DNA of 49,736 nucleotides, taken from assembly GCA_022842995.1 (NCBI GenBank), contig JALHOM010000004.1:28927-78662 (forward strand), read 5' to 3'. The position numbers and the translations under genes were made by a program. This document shows positions 1 through 29,347 of this stretch, piece by piece. This stretch comes from Candidatus Saccharimonadota bacterium. GTDB lineage: Bacteria > Patescibacteriota > Saccharimonadia > Saccharimonadales > 2-12-FULL-41-12. How positions within the stretch are numbered: the first letter of the stretch is position 1; every line of letters begins with the position of its first letter. The notes beneath the pieces are model-generated. The model was not told the origin of the DNA, did no database searches, and saw only the letters and a program-made list of their open reading frames with translations.

Positions 1-68
1 GGAACCTTCCGATGGCAACTGGTTTGCCAATCGCGAAGTTCCGGGCCCGCCGAAGGTGGGTCGAGTCC
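1..68 (+). repeat. tRNA-associated hairpin repeat, copy A
   Basis: This copy aligns over its whole length with 292-357. Both fold into a hairpin with a CTGG-type loop (stem 13-18 with 24-29 here), then the shared linker GAAGTTCCGGG, then a GC hairpin ending in CGAGTCC, which resembles a tRNA T-loop. Stem bases differ between the copies but pairing is kept (GGC/GCC here, GAA/TTC in the other), so the structure seems to be what is conserved. The window begins inside it, so its left end is unknown. Confidence 0.6.
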
Positions 69-88
69 AGATTTTAACCAAAGTCAGT

Positions 89-94
89 TATAAT
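89..94 (+). promoter_or_regulatory. -10 box of tRNA-Arg
   Basis: TATAAT lies 14 nt upstream of the mature tRNA 5' end. No good -35 box is visible at 17 bp spacing. Confidence 0.55.
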
Positions 95-108
95 ATTGTT
101 CGTGGTAC

Positions 109-185
109 GCCCCGGTAGCTCAGTGGATTAGAGCAATGGGCTTCTATCCCACAGGTCGGGGGTTCGAGTCCCTCCCGGGGTACCA
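109..185 (+). tRNA. tRNA-Arg (anticodon UCU)
   Basis: The cloverleaf can be drawn by hand. The acceptor stem GCCCCGG pairs with CCGGGGT with one G-U. The D-arm contains TAGCTCAGTGG. The anticodon loop is CTTCTAT, giving UCU, which reads AGA/AGG. The T-arm is GGGGG-TTCGAGT-CCCTC. The discriminator A and the CCA tail are encoded. The CCA also forms the base of the following terminator stem. Confidence 0.95.
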
Positions 186-222
186 TATAAAAAAGGTCAC
201 TTGCTGGCCTTTTTTATATGGT
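182..222 (+). terminator. terminator of tRNA-Arg, using the tRNA ACCA in its stem
   Basis: A perfect 15-bp stem pairs 182-196 with 208-222, with an A-run on one arm and a T-run on the other. The first four stem bases are the 3' ACCA of the tRNA, so tRNA maturation and terminator folding share sequence. Confidence 0.85.
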
Positions 223-250
223 TTCTTGAAAGGAACTCGAATCACCGACC
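220..250 (-). repeat. inverted copy of the tRNA-Arg T-arm and 3' acceptor strand
   Basis: Read on the minus strand, 22 of these 31 bases match the 3' end of the tRNA-Arg gene without gaps. The core ACTCGAA and the CCGACC end are retained. It continues the terminator palindrome outward, making one long imperfect fold-back of tRNA 3' end, terminator and anti-tRNA. Confidence 0.65.
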
Positions 251-371
251 AAAAAGGTCGGAGGTGAGAAATGCCTGTGGCATTTCGCAAGGGAATCTTC
301 TCTTGAAAACTGGTTTTCAAAGACGAAGTTCCGGGCTCGCCAAAGGTGAGCGAGTCCCTCCCGGGGTACCA
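251..371 (+). repeat. hairpin string ending in a copy of the tRNA-Arg 3' end (includes repeat copy B, 292-357)
   Basis: Successive small hairpins follow the inverted T-arm: an AAATGCC/GGCATTT stem, the CTGG-loop hairpin at 303-320, and a GCTCGCC/GGTGAGC stem. The segment then becomes identical to the last 21 nt of tRNA-Arg (351-371 equals 165-185) and runs straight into a second terminator. There is no intact tRNA here, so this is a 3'-end fragment. Confidence 0.7.
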
Positions 372-408
372 TATAAAGAAGGTCGCTCGTCGACCTTTTT
401 TATATGGT
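368..408 (+). terminator. second copy of the tRNA-Arg terminator
   Basis: An 18-bp stem pairs 368-385 with 391-408, loop CTCGT, with one wobble. It is homologous to the terminator at 182-222 and again includes ACCA at its base. The tail matches the bases after the first terminator before diverging near 422. Confidence 0.75.
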
Positions 409-448
409 TTCTTGAAAGGACTAGTTGGTCTACCCAGTATTTTTACTT

Positions 449-25291: not shown

Positions 25292-25327
25292 GGTTTATCG
25301 ATGAAAGTAATCAATAAGGATATAGCA

Positions 25328-27439
25328 ATGAAGAACATTTTTAAAGCACTACGGAACAAAGTTACTTTGTTCGCGGTCCTGACAATTGCATTGTTGGGTA
25401 TCGCAGGTGCAGTATCAATCGCATCTTTTGGTCCTGATCGACCAATCAAAAAATACGTTCAAGGTCAAAAAGGCTTTGATTATGTAACCTTTAACTCCTT
25501 CACTGACGTACCAAACATTGGTGACGAACGAAATTTCGTAACCGGTAAGATCAATAACGCTCCTGACGGATTTTATGACCCAATGTATCAGGTCCGTGAT
25601 GGTAACGAAATATTGGTTCGTGTATACGTTCACAACAATGCAGACGCAAGCCTAAATAGTGCTGAAAATGGCGCAAAAGGTGTAGCTAAAAACACGAAAG
25701 TTCGTGCAGAAATCCCTACTGGCTTAGCTACCGCTCAGCAAGCAAAAGCATATATTACTGCTGACAATGCACAGCCTAAATCAATTTATGACACGCTAGA
25801 TGTAACGGCTAATTATCCAATAGAGCTTGATTACGTTGAAGGTTCTGCGCATCTAGATTCTAATTTTGTAAATGATCTGCCTTTGTCTGACGACATTGTA
25901 AAAGGTGGAGTCCTTATCGGTGACGATAAGTTAGATGGTAACATTCCAGGATGTTTCGAATATGTTGCCTTGGTAACGTTCAAGGTTAAGGTTAAGGCTT
26001 CTAACTATAACGTTGCTAAGACTGTACGACTTGAAGGCGAAGACAAGACTAAGTGGCGTGAACAGGCTGAAGTTCAGCCCGCCGGTACAGTTGAGTGGAA
26101 GCTAGAATTTAAGAACACTGGTGCTGCTCAGCTTAACAACGTAGATATCTACGATCAGTTGCCAGCGAAAATGACATTGGTTCCTGGTTCTACTATGATC
26201 TATAACACCAAATTCCCAAGCGGCGTAAATGCAGGAACAGACAATATCATCAAGAATGGTATTGATGTCGGAGACTACGCTCCTGCAAGTAACGTGATTG
26301 TGGTATTTAAGGCCAAAGTTCCTTCTATGAATGAACTAGCCTGCGGTGTAAATACTTTTGTAAACAAAGGGTTTGCAATCCCAGAAGGTCAGGCGGCAGT
26401 AACAGATAATGCTTCTGTTACGGTCAATAAAAACTGTGTTACGCCAACATACTCTTGTGACCTCTTGACTGCTACAAAAGTAGGGACTGGTCGAGAATAC
26501 AAGTTCACTGCTAATGCTTCAAATGCTGGTGGTGCAACTATTCAACGATATGTCTTTACGTTCGGTGATGGTCAGACACGCACTGTTACTAACAATTCTC
26601 TGAATTACACTTATGCAGCTGATGGTCGGTATAATGCCAATGTAAAAGTGGATGTACTGGTTAATGGTCAGACCGTGACCGTTGGAGGAAACGGTGGTTG
26701 TGCGGTGCAACTCAATGTTGATACTGCTGTTCCAGCTTACGCTTGTGACATGTTGACTGCCGAGAAGCTGAACGGACGAACGGTACGATTCAACGCCAAG
26801 GCTTCTGCTACTAACGGTGCAACAATTCAGAACTATACTTACAATTTCGGTGATGGTTCTGCAGTCCTGACTTCTACGAACGACCTCGTAACTTACACGT
26901 ATGAAAAAGATGGTTCATACAAGCCAGAAGTTAAAGTAAACGTGCTTGTTAATGGTCAGACTGTGTCTGTCAGCGGTGCAAACTGTGTTGCAAACCTCGA
27001 GTTTTCAACCGTAAACCCTACTTACTCATGCGACCTTGTGACTATCGAAAAGACAGGTGAGCGCAACGTTAAGGTAAAGGCTAAGGCCTCTGCAAATAAT
27101 GGCGCTACAATCAAGCGATATGTATACAACTTCGGTGACGGTTCTGCTGAACTTACAACCGACAAGACAGAAGTTACACACACCTATGCAAAAGACGGCC
27201 AATACGCTGTGCGCGTAAAAGTGCAGATAGGCATCGGTAACGAAACTGTAACGGCTGAAAGCAACGCTTGTGCAGCAGCTGTAACCTTCGCGAGTACACC
27301 GACTACTCCTGTCACTCCAACCACTCCTGGTAAATTACCAGAGGCTGGTGCGGGTAGCGTAATTGCCACTTTCTTGGCTGTTACTGGTGTGAGCACCCTT
27401 GGCTACTATCTGCTTGCACGACGATCTGCTCGTATCTAA
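25328..27439 (+). CDS. LPXTG-type surface protein with DUF11-like and three PKD repeats
   Basis: 703 aa. The start at 25328 follows AAGGATA; a start 27 nt upstream is possible. It has a signal/TM segment (VTLFAVLTIALLGIAGAVSI), a DUF11-like region near 60-360 (VEWKLEFKNTGAAQLNNVDI), then three repeats of about 90 aa, each opening with Y(S/A)CD and containing YxFxFGDGxxxxxT...YxxDGxY, the PKD fold. The C-terminus is a sorting signal: LPEAG, a hydrophobic stretch and RRSARI. Inference: anchored to the wall by a sortase, projecting PKD domains for adhesion. LPEAG differs from canonical LPXTG at the fourth position. Confidence 0.87.
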   Translation: MKNIFKALRNKVTLFAVLTIALLGIAGAVSIASFGPDRPIKKYVQGQKGFDYVTFNSFTDVPNIGDERNFVTGKINNAPDGFYDPMYQVRDGNEILVRVYVHNNADASLNSAENGAKGVAKNTKVRAEIPTGLATAQQAKAYITADNAQPKSIYDTLDVTANYPIELDYVEGSAHLDSNFVNDLPLSDDIVKGGVLIGDDKLDGNIPGCFEYVALVTFKVKVKASNYNVAKTVRLEGEDKTKWREQAEVQPAGTVEWKLEFKNTGAAQLNNVDIYDQLPAKMTLVPGSTMIYNTKFPSGVNAGTDNIIKNGIDVGDYAPASNVIVVFKAKVPSMNELACGVNTFVNKGFAIPEGQAAVTDNASVTVNKNCVTPTYSCDLLTATKVGTGREYKFTANASNAGGATIQRYVFTFGDGQTRTVTNNSLNYTYAADGRYNANVKVDVLVNGQTVTVGGNGGCAVQLNVDTAVPAYACDMLTAEKLNGRTVRFNAKASATNGATIQNYTYNFGDGSAVLTSTNDLVTYTYEKDGSYKPEVKVNVLVNGQTVSVSGANCVANLEFSTVNPTYSCDLVTIEKTGERNVKVKAKASANNGATIKRYVYNFGDGSAELTTDKTEVTHTYAKDGQYAVRVKVQIGIGNETVTAESNACAAAVTFASTPTTPVTPTTPGKLPEAGAGSVIATFLAVTGVSTLGYYLLARRSARI

Positions 27440-27783: not shown

Positions 27784-28413
27784 CTAATGGTCGGCGAGGG
27801 TGTATTTCAGTTCTTTTAGTTCGGCCCTTGCTGACTCATAGTCTTTAACGAAGTTTTGATAGTTTTTTTCGTTGTTGTCGTGCAAAAGCATGATTTTGTC
27901 TGGGTGAAGCCACTCTGCGCTTCTTTTCCGCAGGAAGTGGAGGTAGCTGGAATAAGGATAATCTTCAAACGGCATACCTATATCCTGAGGATTTAGATGG
28001 ATGTACCGGCTGATATGGATGAGATAAGAGTCATCAAGGATTGGGCTGGCTTTATATGTACCCTGAAAGAGTGTGCCTTTCCTGTTATATTTGCGGTTGA
28101 AATACATGCTGTAGGCTGTCATTACGCTTCGCATGACGGCAGGCAAACCCTCGTCTGTGAGGGTGTAGATAAGTAAATGGAAATGGTTTGGCATGAGGCA
28201 GTAAGCCAAAACTTCGACTTGATCGTATAGATGAACTGCTTGTCTGCCGAAGCGGTCCACAGCCGGTTCTGGGGATAGATGTCTTCTGAGTAAAGACAGA
28301 AAAGTCGCATAATCTTGGCTATCGATGAATATTGATCGTTTATCTACTCCACGGTTGAAGACATGGTAGTAGTTATCTCGAATAGGTGTCTTGACGATGT
28401 ATTTACTAGGCAT
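27784..28413 (-). CDS. REP-associated tyrosine transposase (Y1 / IS200-like)
   Basis: 209 aa from MPSKYIVK. Y1 transposases are HUH single-strand nucleases that cut at hairpins. Motifs are YYHVFNRGVDKRSIF near the N-terminus, the HUH metal site PNHFHLLIY (about 95-103), and a helix with candidate catalytic Tyr in TAYSMYFNRKYNRKGTLFQG, then YIHLNPQDIG. The length fits the RAYT/TnpA_REP group. The upstream in-frame extension to 28464 is rejected because it translates the palindrome. The ATG sits at the inner edge of the right palindrome. Confidence 0.92.
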   Translation of the reverse strand: MPSKYIVKTPIRDNYYHVFNRGVDKRSIFIDSQDYATFLSLLRRHLSPEPAVDRFGRQAVHLYDQVEVLAYCLMPNHFHLLIYTLTDEGLPAVMRSVMTAYSMYFNRKYNRKGTLFQGTYKASPILDDSYLIHISRYIHLNPQDIGMPFEDYPYSSYLHFLRKRSAEWLHPDKIMLLHDNNEKNYQNFVKDYESARAELKELKYTLADH

Positions 28414-28451
28414 TGCAGGGTTCTTCCTTGCAACAAGGATAAACCCTGCAA
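28413..28451. repeat. right-end palindrome of the RAYT element
   Basis: 18-bp arms with two mismatches and a CAA loop. It overlaps the transposase start codon, so the end hairpin could also affect expression. Confidence 0.75.
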
Positions 28452-28516
28452 AAGTAGAGTGCAAGCAGTAGCGGAACAGGGGTAGGAGATTTTATGGTTA
28501 ATTAGACGGATTTTTG

Positions 28517-28586
28517 ACATTCACCACTGTATTTTGTCTTGAAATAAGGTATAATATGGGTAATATTTCGGTCTCATCGTCTAACG
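28517..28586 (+). repeat. duplicate of the tRNA-Glu promoter and tRNA 5' end
   Basis: 70 nt essentially identical to 28710-28779. It includes the TATAAT and the first 17 nt of tRNA-Glu, after which it jumps to TGAGATC, the 3' acceptor strand of the same tRNA. The result is a promoter driving a deleted mini-tRNA. Confidence 0.85.
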
Positions 28587-28709
28587 TGAGATCCGCCAGT
28601 TGGCGGATCGCAAGGTCGGAAACCTGGCTCGCGAATGCGACCAAGTTGAGACGGGGTCGACCGCAATTTCAAAGAAATTGACGGGTGACTAGGACACCAG
28701 GCTGTCCTA
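28587..28709 (+). repeat. hairpins and internal tRNA-Glu fragment
   Basis: It contains the palindrome GATCCGCC-AG-TTGGCGGATC (28590-28609), a CAATTTC-AAA-GAAATTG hairpin, and TAGGACACCAGG, which is the D-arm/anticodon-stem part of tRNA-Glu. No intact tRNA can be folded. Confidence 0.65.
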
Positions 28710-28762: not shown

Positions 28763-28837
28763 GGTCTCATCGTCTAACGGTTAGGACACCAGGTTTTCAT
28801 CCTGGCAATCGGAGTTCGATTCTCCGTGAGATCACCA
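28763..28837 (+). tRNA. tRNA-Glu (anticodon UUC)
   Basis: The acceptor GGTCTCA pairs with TGAGATC with one G-U. The D-arm is GTCTAACGGTTAGGAC. The anticodon arm is CCAGG-TTTTCAT-CCTGG with UUC. The T-arm contains GGAG-TTCGATTC-TCC. The encoded CCA ends at 28837. It is the only intact tRNA in a cluster of its own fragments. Confidence 0.95.
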
Positions 28838-28874: not shown

Positions 28875-28891
28875 GCTTTTCATCAGAGGAG

Positions 28892-28911
28892 ATCGAACTC
28901 CGATTGCCAGG
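28892..28911 (-). repeat. inverted 20-nt copy of tRNA-Glu T-arm and anticodon stem
   Basis: Exact reverse complement of 28801-28820 inside tRNA-Glu. Read-through RNA could pair with the tRNA precursor across the terminator. Confidence 0.9.
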
Positions 28912-29029
28912 GCACCGTGAGGTGGGGCAATCGTGAGTACGACAACAAGTCACACGCGCAGATGCTTGCATCGAGCATGTGACGCAGTTTCCAATTAACT
29001 TGTTTAATTGATTCTCCGTGAGATCACCA
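28912..29029 (+). repeat. hairpin string ending in tRNA-Glu 3' end, fragment 2
   Basis: It includes CACC-GTGA-GGTG, GATGC-TT-GCATC and a CAATTAA/TTTAATTG stem, then 20 nt (29010-29029) identical to the tRNA-Glu 3' end including CCA. Confidence 0.8.
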
Positions 29030-29068: not shown

Positions 29069-29191
29069 TGAATCCCGTAGGGATTCAGAACTCCGCAGGA
29101 GTTCGTTCATGAGGAGCTCTCGCATCCGCCAGTTGGCGGAGAGAAAGTGACGAAATGGTTGACTTTAGTCAACGGATTCGTGAGATCACCA
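29069..29191 (+). repeat. degenerate inverted T-arm, hairpins and tRNA-Glu 3' fragment 3
   Basis: Small hairpins follow one another: AATCCC-GTA-GGGATT, GAACTCC-GCA-GGAGTTC, TCCGCCAG/TTGGCGGA (29125-29140) and GTTGACT-TT-AGTCAAC. The segment ends in CGTGAGATCACCA (29179-29191), the tRNA-Glu 3' end with a 3-nt deletion just upstream. Confidence 0.7.
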
Positions 29192-29228: not shown

Positions 29229-29347
29229 GTTCGCCAGCTGGCGAACGAATCGAACTCTAGTTCGAAGATCAAAGTCACGCACAGGAATTTATTCCGAGCA
29301 TGACTGCAGATCGCAAGGCTTCAGCCTTATTCTCCGTGAGATCACCA
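29229..29347 (+). repeat. inverted T-arm, hairpins and tRNA-Glu 3' fragment 4
   Basis: Starts with the perfect palindrome GTTCGCCAG/CTGGCGAAC (29229-29246), then GAATCGAACTC (29247-29257), an exact inverted copy of the tRNA-Glu T-loop, then TCGAACT-CT-AGTTCGA, GGAAT-TT-ATTCC and AAGGCT-TC-AGCCTT, and ends with 19 nt of the tRNA 3' end (29329-29347). The terminator that follows is imperfect and merges into the next gene's promoter. Confidence 0.75.

Follow-up and report, generated by a model that had tools for sequence, protein, structure and literature searches.

tRNA genes are classic landing sites of mobile DNA, and in the cases known to us the landing element carries an integrase and uses one tRNA each. 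Several families of short repeats are also described. REP sequences are short, non-coding hairpins scattered through one genome, with a GTAG tetranucleotide beside the hairpin in REP/RAYT systems, while Rickettsia palindromic elements measure close to 100 nt. The tyrT repeats of Escherichia coli (rtT RNA, Rfam RF00391) are tandem units downstream of a tRNA gene, each of which closes with a repeat of the 3' end of that tRNA. Integration sub-sites are described in the Islander work as the anticodon loop, the T loop and the T/acceptor junction (PMC4383910), and mycobacteriophage Ms6 is described as using a 7-bp T-loop site (PMC1762012). tRNA fragments have been reported to arise from integration (PMC9897764), and Rickettsia palindromic elements have been called parasitic palindromic sequences (PMC5799277).

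The window analysed here is a stretch of 49,736 nt (C4:28927-78662) from the 1.11-Mb genome of a Candidatus Saccharimonadota bacterium (hereafter G000), and it opens within a tRNA-Arg(TCT) locus (Table 1). An initial annotation had described an ordered series at this gene, consisting of the tRNA, a terminator using ACCA, an inverted T-arm, hairpins, 21 nt copied from the 3' end of the tRNA, and a further terminator. Our repeat analysis confirmed this order, and only the proposed start of another inverted T-arm had to be shortened, to the 12 nt of 409-420, beyond which the sequence no longer agrees. The inverted T-arm, at about 229-250, lies in an imperfect inverted repeat (154-199/205-250; 46 nt, 78%), and the 21-nt copy, which spans the 3' part of the T-loop, the T-stem, the acceptor and the CCA, lies in a direct repeat (165-234/351-420; 70 nt, 91%). 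Beyond what had been annotated, we found that the hairpins represent one conserved, dispersed family, core A, which is the common part of the loci. The core A pattern at 263-292 did not occur in 100 shuffles.

Upstream of the tRNA-Arg gene stand three tandem partial copies of the same tRNA. Each of these units comprises a promoter, the tRNA 5' part with an altered D-loop, and core A in the T-loop, without the 3' strand of the acceptor. The last unit is interrupted by a 10-N gap and then ends in the first 68 nt of the window, so that the core A remnant found there is truncated by the window start and the gap; the repeated units are visible in locus L009. This scaffold gap (L009 2018-2027; C4:28917-28926) lies immediately ahead of the window and within the tandem units, so the true number of upstream units may be larger. 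The region at 69-108, which recurs ahead of the upstream copies, reads as a putative tRNA-Arg promoter; a sigma-70 consensus scan returned no promoter there, and terminator 1 went unflagged by the consensus scan on the plus strand.

Table 1. Features of the tRNA-Arg and tRNA-Glu loci in the window (R1 and R2, covariance models of core A and core E)
Feature	Position	Strand	Evidence
Core A, 3' part, of upstream partial tRNA-Arg copy	1-68	+	R1 54.1 bits, model 32-98
Putative tRNA-Arg promoter region, TATAAT at about 89-94	69-108	+	From sequence
tRNA-Arg(TCT), intact	109-185	+	ARAGORN; Rfam RF00005 65.7 bits
Terminator 1, palindrome with encoded ACCA	182-222	+	Inverted repeats, arms 182-199/205-222
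Inverted variable region and T-arm of tRNA-Arg	223-250	-	Inverted repeat; local alignment p 0.003
Direct copy of variable region/T-stem 5' strand	256-262	+	Sequence; pairs with 244-250 in predicted fold
Core A in place of T-loop	263-351	+	R1 110.8 bits at 261-358, seed member of model
Core A hairpins at tRNA-Arg	H1 268-286; H2 about 293-332; H3 335-351	+	Covariation
Exact 21-nt copy of tRNA-Arg 3' end	351-371	+	Direct repeat
Terminator 2, compensated differences relative to terminator 1	368-408	+	Inverted repeat
Diverged core A in D-loop of upstream partial tRNA-Glu copy	28583-28687	+	R1 28.6 bits
tRNA-Glu(TTC), intact, second case in window	28763-28837	+	ARAGORN
Inverted T-arm and variable region of tRNA-Glu	28888-28911	-	Sequence; p 0.003
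Core E, first copy	28931-29017	+	R2 58.2 bits, in model seed
tRNA-Glu 3' end copies	29010-29029, 29174-29191, 29329-29347	+	Sequence
Core E, second copy	29254-29335	+	R2 77.3 bits, in model seed

Core A is a family of about 95 nt with the layout GGTGAG-H1-GCAAGG-H2-CGGG-H3, and it is also found nested within itself, in H3. The covariance model R1 was built from 15 copies of G000 and holds 35 pairs, 24 of which change on both sides within the seed; across 131 matches in named public contigs (130 distinct), most pairs occur in two to four Watson-Crick types. Leaving out pairs with 30% G.U or more, the helices contain G.U in 71 of 4051 cells (1.75%) and A.C in 41, as compared with 291 G.U in 4124 cells (7.06%) of tRNA stems drawn by ARAGORN. 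This scarcity favours DNA-like hairpins. On the other hand, G.U slightly exceeds A.C (p 0.006, an excess for which the A.C class has no control since ARAGORN draws no A.C) and a single G.U pair in H3 is conserved (102 of 127 cells), both of which favour an RNA strand. Core A is thus composed of structured, covarying helices, which may act at the level of RNA or of DNA. At the Rfam gathering score the window returned only tRNA families, and neither this search nor a lax scan of four loci gave a family for the core A hairpins, a group I or group II intron family, or a match to RF00391.

In G000, 36 R1 rows were obtained, four of which were left out as overlapping-source duplicates or weak reverse-strand rows; 31 of the remaining 32 matches lie at 19 of the 39 tRNA genes, and the last one stands at the end of a contig. 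Core E, a second family described below, raises the number of occupied genes to 21 of 39, which bears out the initial proposal that one architecture is common to different tRNAs. Of 60 genomes of the order, 32 contained R1 matches, and copy numbers ran from 0 (28 genomes) to 35 (G000). A phylum-wide draw placed it in 11 of 379 genomes, ten in the same order and one weak, these counts being low because ten candidates per genome were scored. Most matching public records are named as Saccharibacteria/Saccharimonadia. There was no match in plasmids; 52 phage records match, and in the five of them listed it is the tRNA part alone that does so. In the one open library covered, the open-access literature yielded no description of such units in Saccharibacteria.

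A pattern scan gave at least 114 stretches, and 115 loci (one viral) with 121 places were analysed. Among the pattern matches listed, 88 of the 121 places had a tRNA gene within 400 nt, and 86 of the 88 shared the strand of that gene; when 23 of the 33 tRNA-distant places were inspected by eye, about six proved to be fortuitous matches, from unrelated bacteria or a virus record. Viral contigs gave a single pattern hit (L188), which is without H2 and H3 and was judged a chance match. After merging, the 214 model matches came down to 202 distinct places, 167 of them no more than 600 nt from a tRNA gene. Most (162/167) share the strand of the gene, with 97 standing downstream and 65 upstream of it, and five are on the opposite strand. 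The other 35, some of them at contig ends, have no tRNA gene within this distance, which counts against an insertion element that enters tRNA genes.

One may ask whether any element is needed at all, since each locus could be the independent product of tandem duplication together with template switching at the hairpins of tRNA and terminator. The inverted repeats do extend terminator palindromes, as such events would predict. Moreover, tRNA-Ile offers a case without any core (L013 550-801, G000 C1:2750-3000; also L038): a 5' half stands before and a 3' half after an intact gene, the two halves overlapping by ATAATGA at the anticodon loop, as though the entire gene had been inserted into its own loop. 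Against this, one and the same covarying core recurs in numerous families of the order, at tRNAs that are unrelated to each other (100 of the 115 pattern loci used). A shared family at unrelated tRNAs needs a common source, and we therefore consider independent origins hardly probable at all.

On the 3' side, the tRNA resumes in the T-loop in 101 of the 162 same-strand units, 48 being unplaceable. On the 5' side, the flank ends at the 5' strand of the T-stem in 62, in the D-loop in nine and in the anticodon loop in eight; rarer ends are the 3' side of the D-stem (7), the variable region (5), the 3' side of the anticodon stem (3) and the acceptor (1), with 67 unplaceable. In two pseudo-tRNAs, one Leu(TAG) (L010) and one Glu-like (L160), core A fills both the anticodon loop and the T-loop. 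Two tmRNA genes (L087 and L185) have a core A unit downstream, and by eye core A is found within other G-rich/C-rich hairpins in L102, L133 and L141. The idea that tRNA 3' ends are targeted as a class is consequently too narrow: it is the T-, anticodon and D-loops that are targeted, 65 of the 162 same-strand units stand upstream of the gene, and the units also involve tmRNA and a small number of other hairpins.

Three further loci (L068 about 930-1350, L126 about 380-620, and L157 on the minus strand) contain an unnamed intergenic RNA with the hairpin GAGGGGGTGGGCACC, which could pair with a downstream CCCACCC to form a pseudoknot. Here an intact copy is preceded by truncated copies carrying core A. 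This RNA has no Rfam match, and its interpretation as a tmRNA containing core A was supported by neither Rfam nor ARAGORN, so we treat it as an unknown RNA.

The tRNA pieces that surround the cores are largely of local origin. In G000, 18 of 38 testable tRNA genes (one of the 39 was too short) have an inverted copy of their own T-arm within 130 nt downstream at p<=0.01, as against 1/39 upstream and 0/34 far downstream. The initial annotation had asked whether the inverted copies match the local tRNA rather than a common source, and a better match to some third, common tRNA would have contradicted its reading. The comparison did not refute it: the local tRNA ranked first, ties included, in 15 of the 18 significant inverted T-arms. 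Flanks were compared for 30 core matches of G000 (14 downstream, 16 upstream), and here the local tRNA was best for 12 of the 14 downstream inserts at their 3' flank (one tie) and for 11 of the 16 upstream cores at their 5' flank (one tie). A simple scan of a 70-nt inverted region gave a weaker result, with the local tRNA as unique best in four of 14 downstream units and tied in three, probably because the T-loop is universal. tRNA-Ser(GGA) may be an exception. Its upstream broken copy in G003 and G011 (L043 about 1430-1600; L069 about 950-1130) looks by eye more like the tRNA-Ser of other lineages than like the gene next to it, a situation that replacement of the functional gene could produce.

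Of 82 downstream units across genomes, 80 were testable; 62 of these match the final 20 nt of the local tRNA at 15 positions or more, and 47 of the 62 at all 20. Terminators 1 and 2 show a mean identity of 0.58, compared with 0.37 after shuffling. The persistence of exact tRNA 3' ends beside diverged terminators hints at selection or gene conversion.

Regarding the spread of core A, 23 of 96 cores have their nearest relative in the same genome at another tRNA, while shuffled labels gave 3.8 on average and at most 11 (200 shuffles; 177 of the 202 cores used, of 90-106 nt and known genome, in statistics that ignore genome kinship). Mean core identity is 0.605 within and 0.623 between genomes; as the former is not above the latter, most or much of the spread is old. 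Within one genus, the tRNA-Ser(GGA) gene of G003 is accompanied by an upstream unit and that of G005, another species, is not, although the surroundings align at 71%. No fixed-length target-site duplication could be defined and no clean before/after site was found at the nucleotide level, which counts against an element. The same holds for the side on which units stand. Upstream and downstream units, counted per genome, number 1/12 for Lys(CTT), 1/8 for Lys(TTT), 0/6 for Leu(GAG), 0/5 for His, 6/0 for Ser(GGA) and 6/1 for Pro(GGG), a preference (chi 57.0, reached by 0 of 5000 shuffles) that recurs across genomes and that selection or old inheritance would give equally.

The slot that core A occupies is not reserved for it. 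In the tRNA-Glu array of the window it is taken by core E, for which the model R2 was built from a seed of six, including both array copies. Core E was found in 18 of 40 relatives, and about 13 of 20 fetched loci have, by eye, a same-strand tRNA closely upstream. It follows that what recurs is the slot and not one sequence. Other structured inserts, which resemble neither core A nor core E, lie in upstream broken copies at tRNA-Met and tRNA-Trp (L018 and L020) and at tRNA-Ser (L032 and L033). Ahead of the array, at 25301-27439, we noted a 712-aa protein with internal repeats, a C-terminal LPEAG motif and a hydrophobic tail, which resembles a sortase-anchored surface protein.

On balance, core A most likely represents an insertion element of Saccharibacteria, small and non-autonomous, a reading to which we assign a probability of about 0.5. 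Such an element would enter the hairpin loops of tRNA-like genes, mostly the T-loop, in the orientation of the RNA, and the insert would persist only where a whole tRNA gene remains beside the interrupted copy. A broken copy upstream would then keep the promoter, the 5' part and the core, and one downstream the core, the 3' part, the CCA and the terminator. The inverted T-arm probably derives from fold-back copying begun in the terminator palindrome, which we propose because the palindrome runs from the terminator back through the CCA, the acceptor and the T-arm. The structure, the loop position, the strand bias, the local source of the tRNA pieces, the presence or absence within one genus and the kinship of cores at different tRNAs of a genome are direct observations; insertion as such, the sequence of events and fold-back copying are our interpretation. 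The locus acts like a target-restoring insertion, which is a likeness in how it works and not a claim of membership in that family.

A bolder version of the insertion-element reading, which we put forward only tentatively, is that the units form a new element class, whose structured inserts would be grafted into hairpin loops of RNA, or of a coding strand exposed by transcription, and would be carried back into the genome by the local tRNA. The targets would then be RNA-gene loops and not DNA sequences. This would fit the strand bias, the two unrelated cores in one slot, the two loops filled in a single pseudo-tRNA and the units at tmRNA and non-tRNA hairpins. The reverse transcriptase domain RVT_1 (PF00078) was found in 10 of 60 genomes and not in G000, the core-richest one, which argues against a plain retro route.

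Alternatively, the units may be a selected regulatory RNA, in which upstream copies would be co-transcribed leaders, downstream copies would catch read-through, and both would tune tRNA folding or supply; the inverted T-arm could sequester the T-arm of the tRNA, and the broken halves could compete for pairing. The 312 nt at 109-420 fold far better than shuffled sequences (z -10.0; 0/100 shuffles), and in the predicted structure the tRNA T-arm sits in the palindrome while the 5' acceptor strand pairs with the 3' acceptor strand of the unit. The same-strand bias, the isoacceptor-specific side, the conserved G.U pair in H3 and the exact tRNA 3' ends would all suit a regulator. However, core A is patchy in one genus and absent from 28 of 60 genomes, downstream units stand behind a terminator, so low a G.U content would be unusual for a fold kept as RNA, and at least two unrelated cores occupy the slot. 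On balance we find a regulatory origin rather unlikely.

The enzyme that would move the proposed insertion element was sought among three types. Tyrosine recombinases (PF00589) occur mostly as one per genome, with or without cores, and G000, with its 35 core matches, has a single one, of Xer size. This bears on the possibility that the loci are attachment footprints of tyrosine integrases, in which an element entering the T-loop or anticodon loop would split the tRNA, restore it with its own sequence and leave the displaced fragment behind. Much of the architecture agrees with this: intact tRNAs stand beside displaced fragments, the breaks coincide with known sub-sites as described for Islander (PMC4383910) and Ms6 (PMC1762012), tmRNA is involved too, and the first terminator often differs from the second, as it would if it had arrived with an insert. 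Yet only about 190 gene-free nucleotides, with no encoded integrase, separate the restored tRNA from the displaced fragment; the lone recombinase sits poorly with so many copies; 5' fragments make up 65 of 162 here, as against 159 beside 3760 3' fragments in the Islander set (PMC4383910); and one core serves many tRNAs, whereas Ms6 vectors are described as needing identity of the attP and attB cores (PMC1762012). An integrase origin thus appears quite improbable. For integron attC arrays, which combine folded single-strand sites with a dedicated integron integrase, the PF00589 search showed no second tyrosine recombinase in G000. We also considered gene cassettes, and dropped the idea since the genes between units (L064, L050, L059) looked mutually unrelated.

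Y1 transposases (PF01797), which in REP/RAYT-type systems move hairpins as single-stranded DNA, are the third type. G000 has five genes resembling them, and PF01797 was detected in 16 of the 32 genomes with cores, as against 3 of the 28 without (Fisher p 0.0018). A system of this kind would also account for the near-strict Watson-Crick pairing expected of DNA hairpins, and one of the genes adjoins the tRNA-Glu array. That gene, at 27784-28464 on the minus strand, encodes a Y1/RAYT-type transposase of 226 aa with palindromes TTGCAAGGATAAACCCTGCA... on both sides, and forms a REPtron-like unit. The link to core A is statistical only, though, and may be confounded by genome content, and the core-rich G012, G039, G043 and G021 gave no PF01797 match. 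Nor do the hairpins flank a Y1 gene of their own as in a REPtron: in the 17 of 20 RAYT neighbourhoods that we inspected by eye, most flanks carried other short palindromes, and no core A was recognised; the other three neighbourhoods yielded no matching frame. We therefore regard a RAYT-driven origin as very improbable, and, because most of these flanks carry their own palindromes and several core-rich genomes gave no Y1 match, we name no enzyme for the insertion element.

Altogether, as many as half of the tRNA genes are accompanied in this order of reduced bacteria by gene-less units of about 0.2 kb with a conserved fold in loops. If they are elements, a route of movement is needed with no dedicated enzyme in sight; if they are regulators, they would represent an undescribed layer of tRNA control. 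For annotation, their partial tRNA copies can be miscalled as tRNA genes or as island ends.

Among the known systems, the tyrT repeats share with core A the tandem units downstream of a tRNA gene that end in a copy of its 3' end; core A differs in serving many tRNAs, in its conserved core and in the inverted T-arm. Like REP/RAYT, core A consists of short, dispersed non-coding hairpins, and Y1 transposase genes are present in many of its host genomes, but its unit is a three-hairpin one lodged in RNA-gene loops and the RAYT genes here carry different palindromes. Rickettsia palindromic elements, as described, are similarly palindromic and spreading in reduced genomes (PMC5799277), a likeness of description and not of sequence; the target of core A, by contrast, is the loop of an RNA gene, and partial tRNA copies accompany it. 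The integrative elements of tRNA and tmRNA genes, as far as the Islander and Ms6 accounts describe them (PMC4383910; PMC1762012), resemble core A in the whole tRNA with a displaced fragment, the break in the T-loop or anticodon loop and the use of tmRNA. Unlike these elements, core A units measure only about 0.2 kb, are integrase- and gene-free, recur at many tRNAs of one genome, carry a structured insert in place of an island and, in two fifths of the same-strand cases, keep the 5' part upstream.
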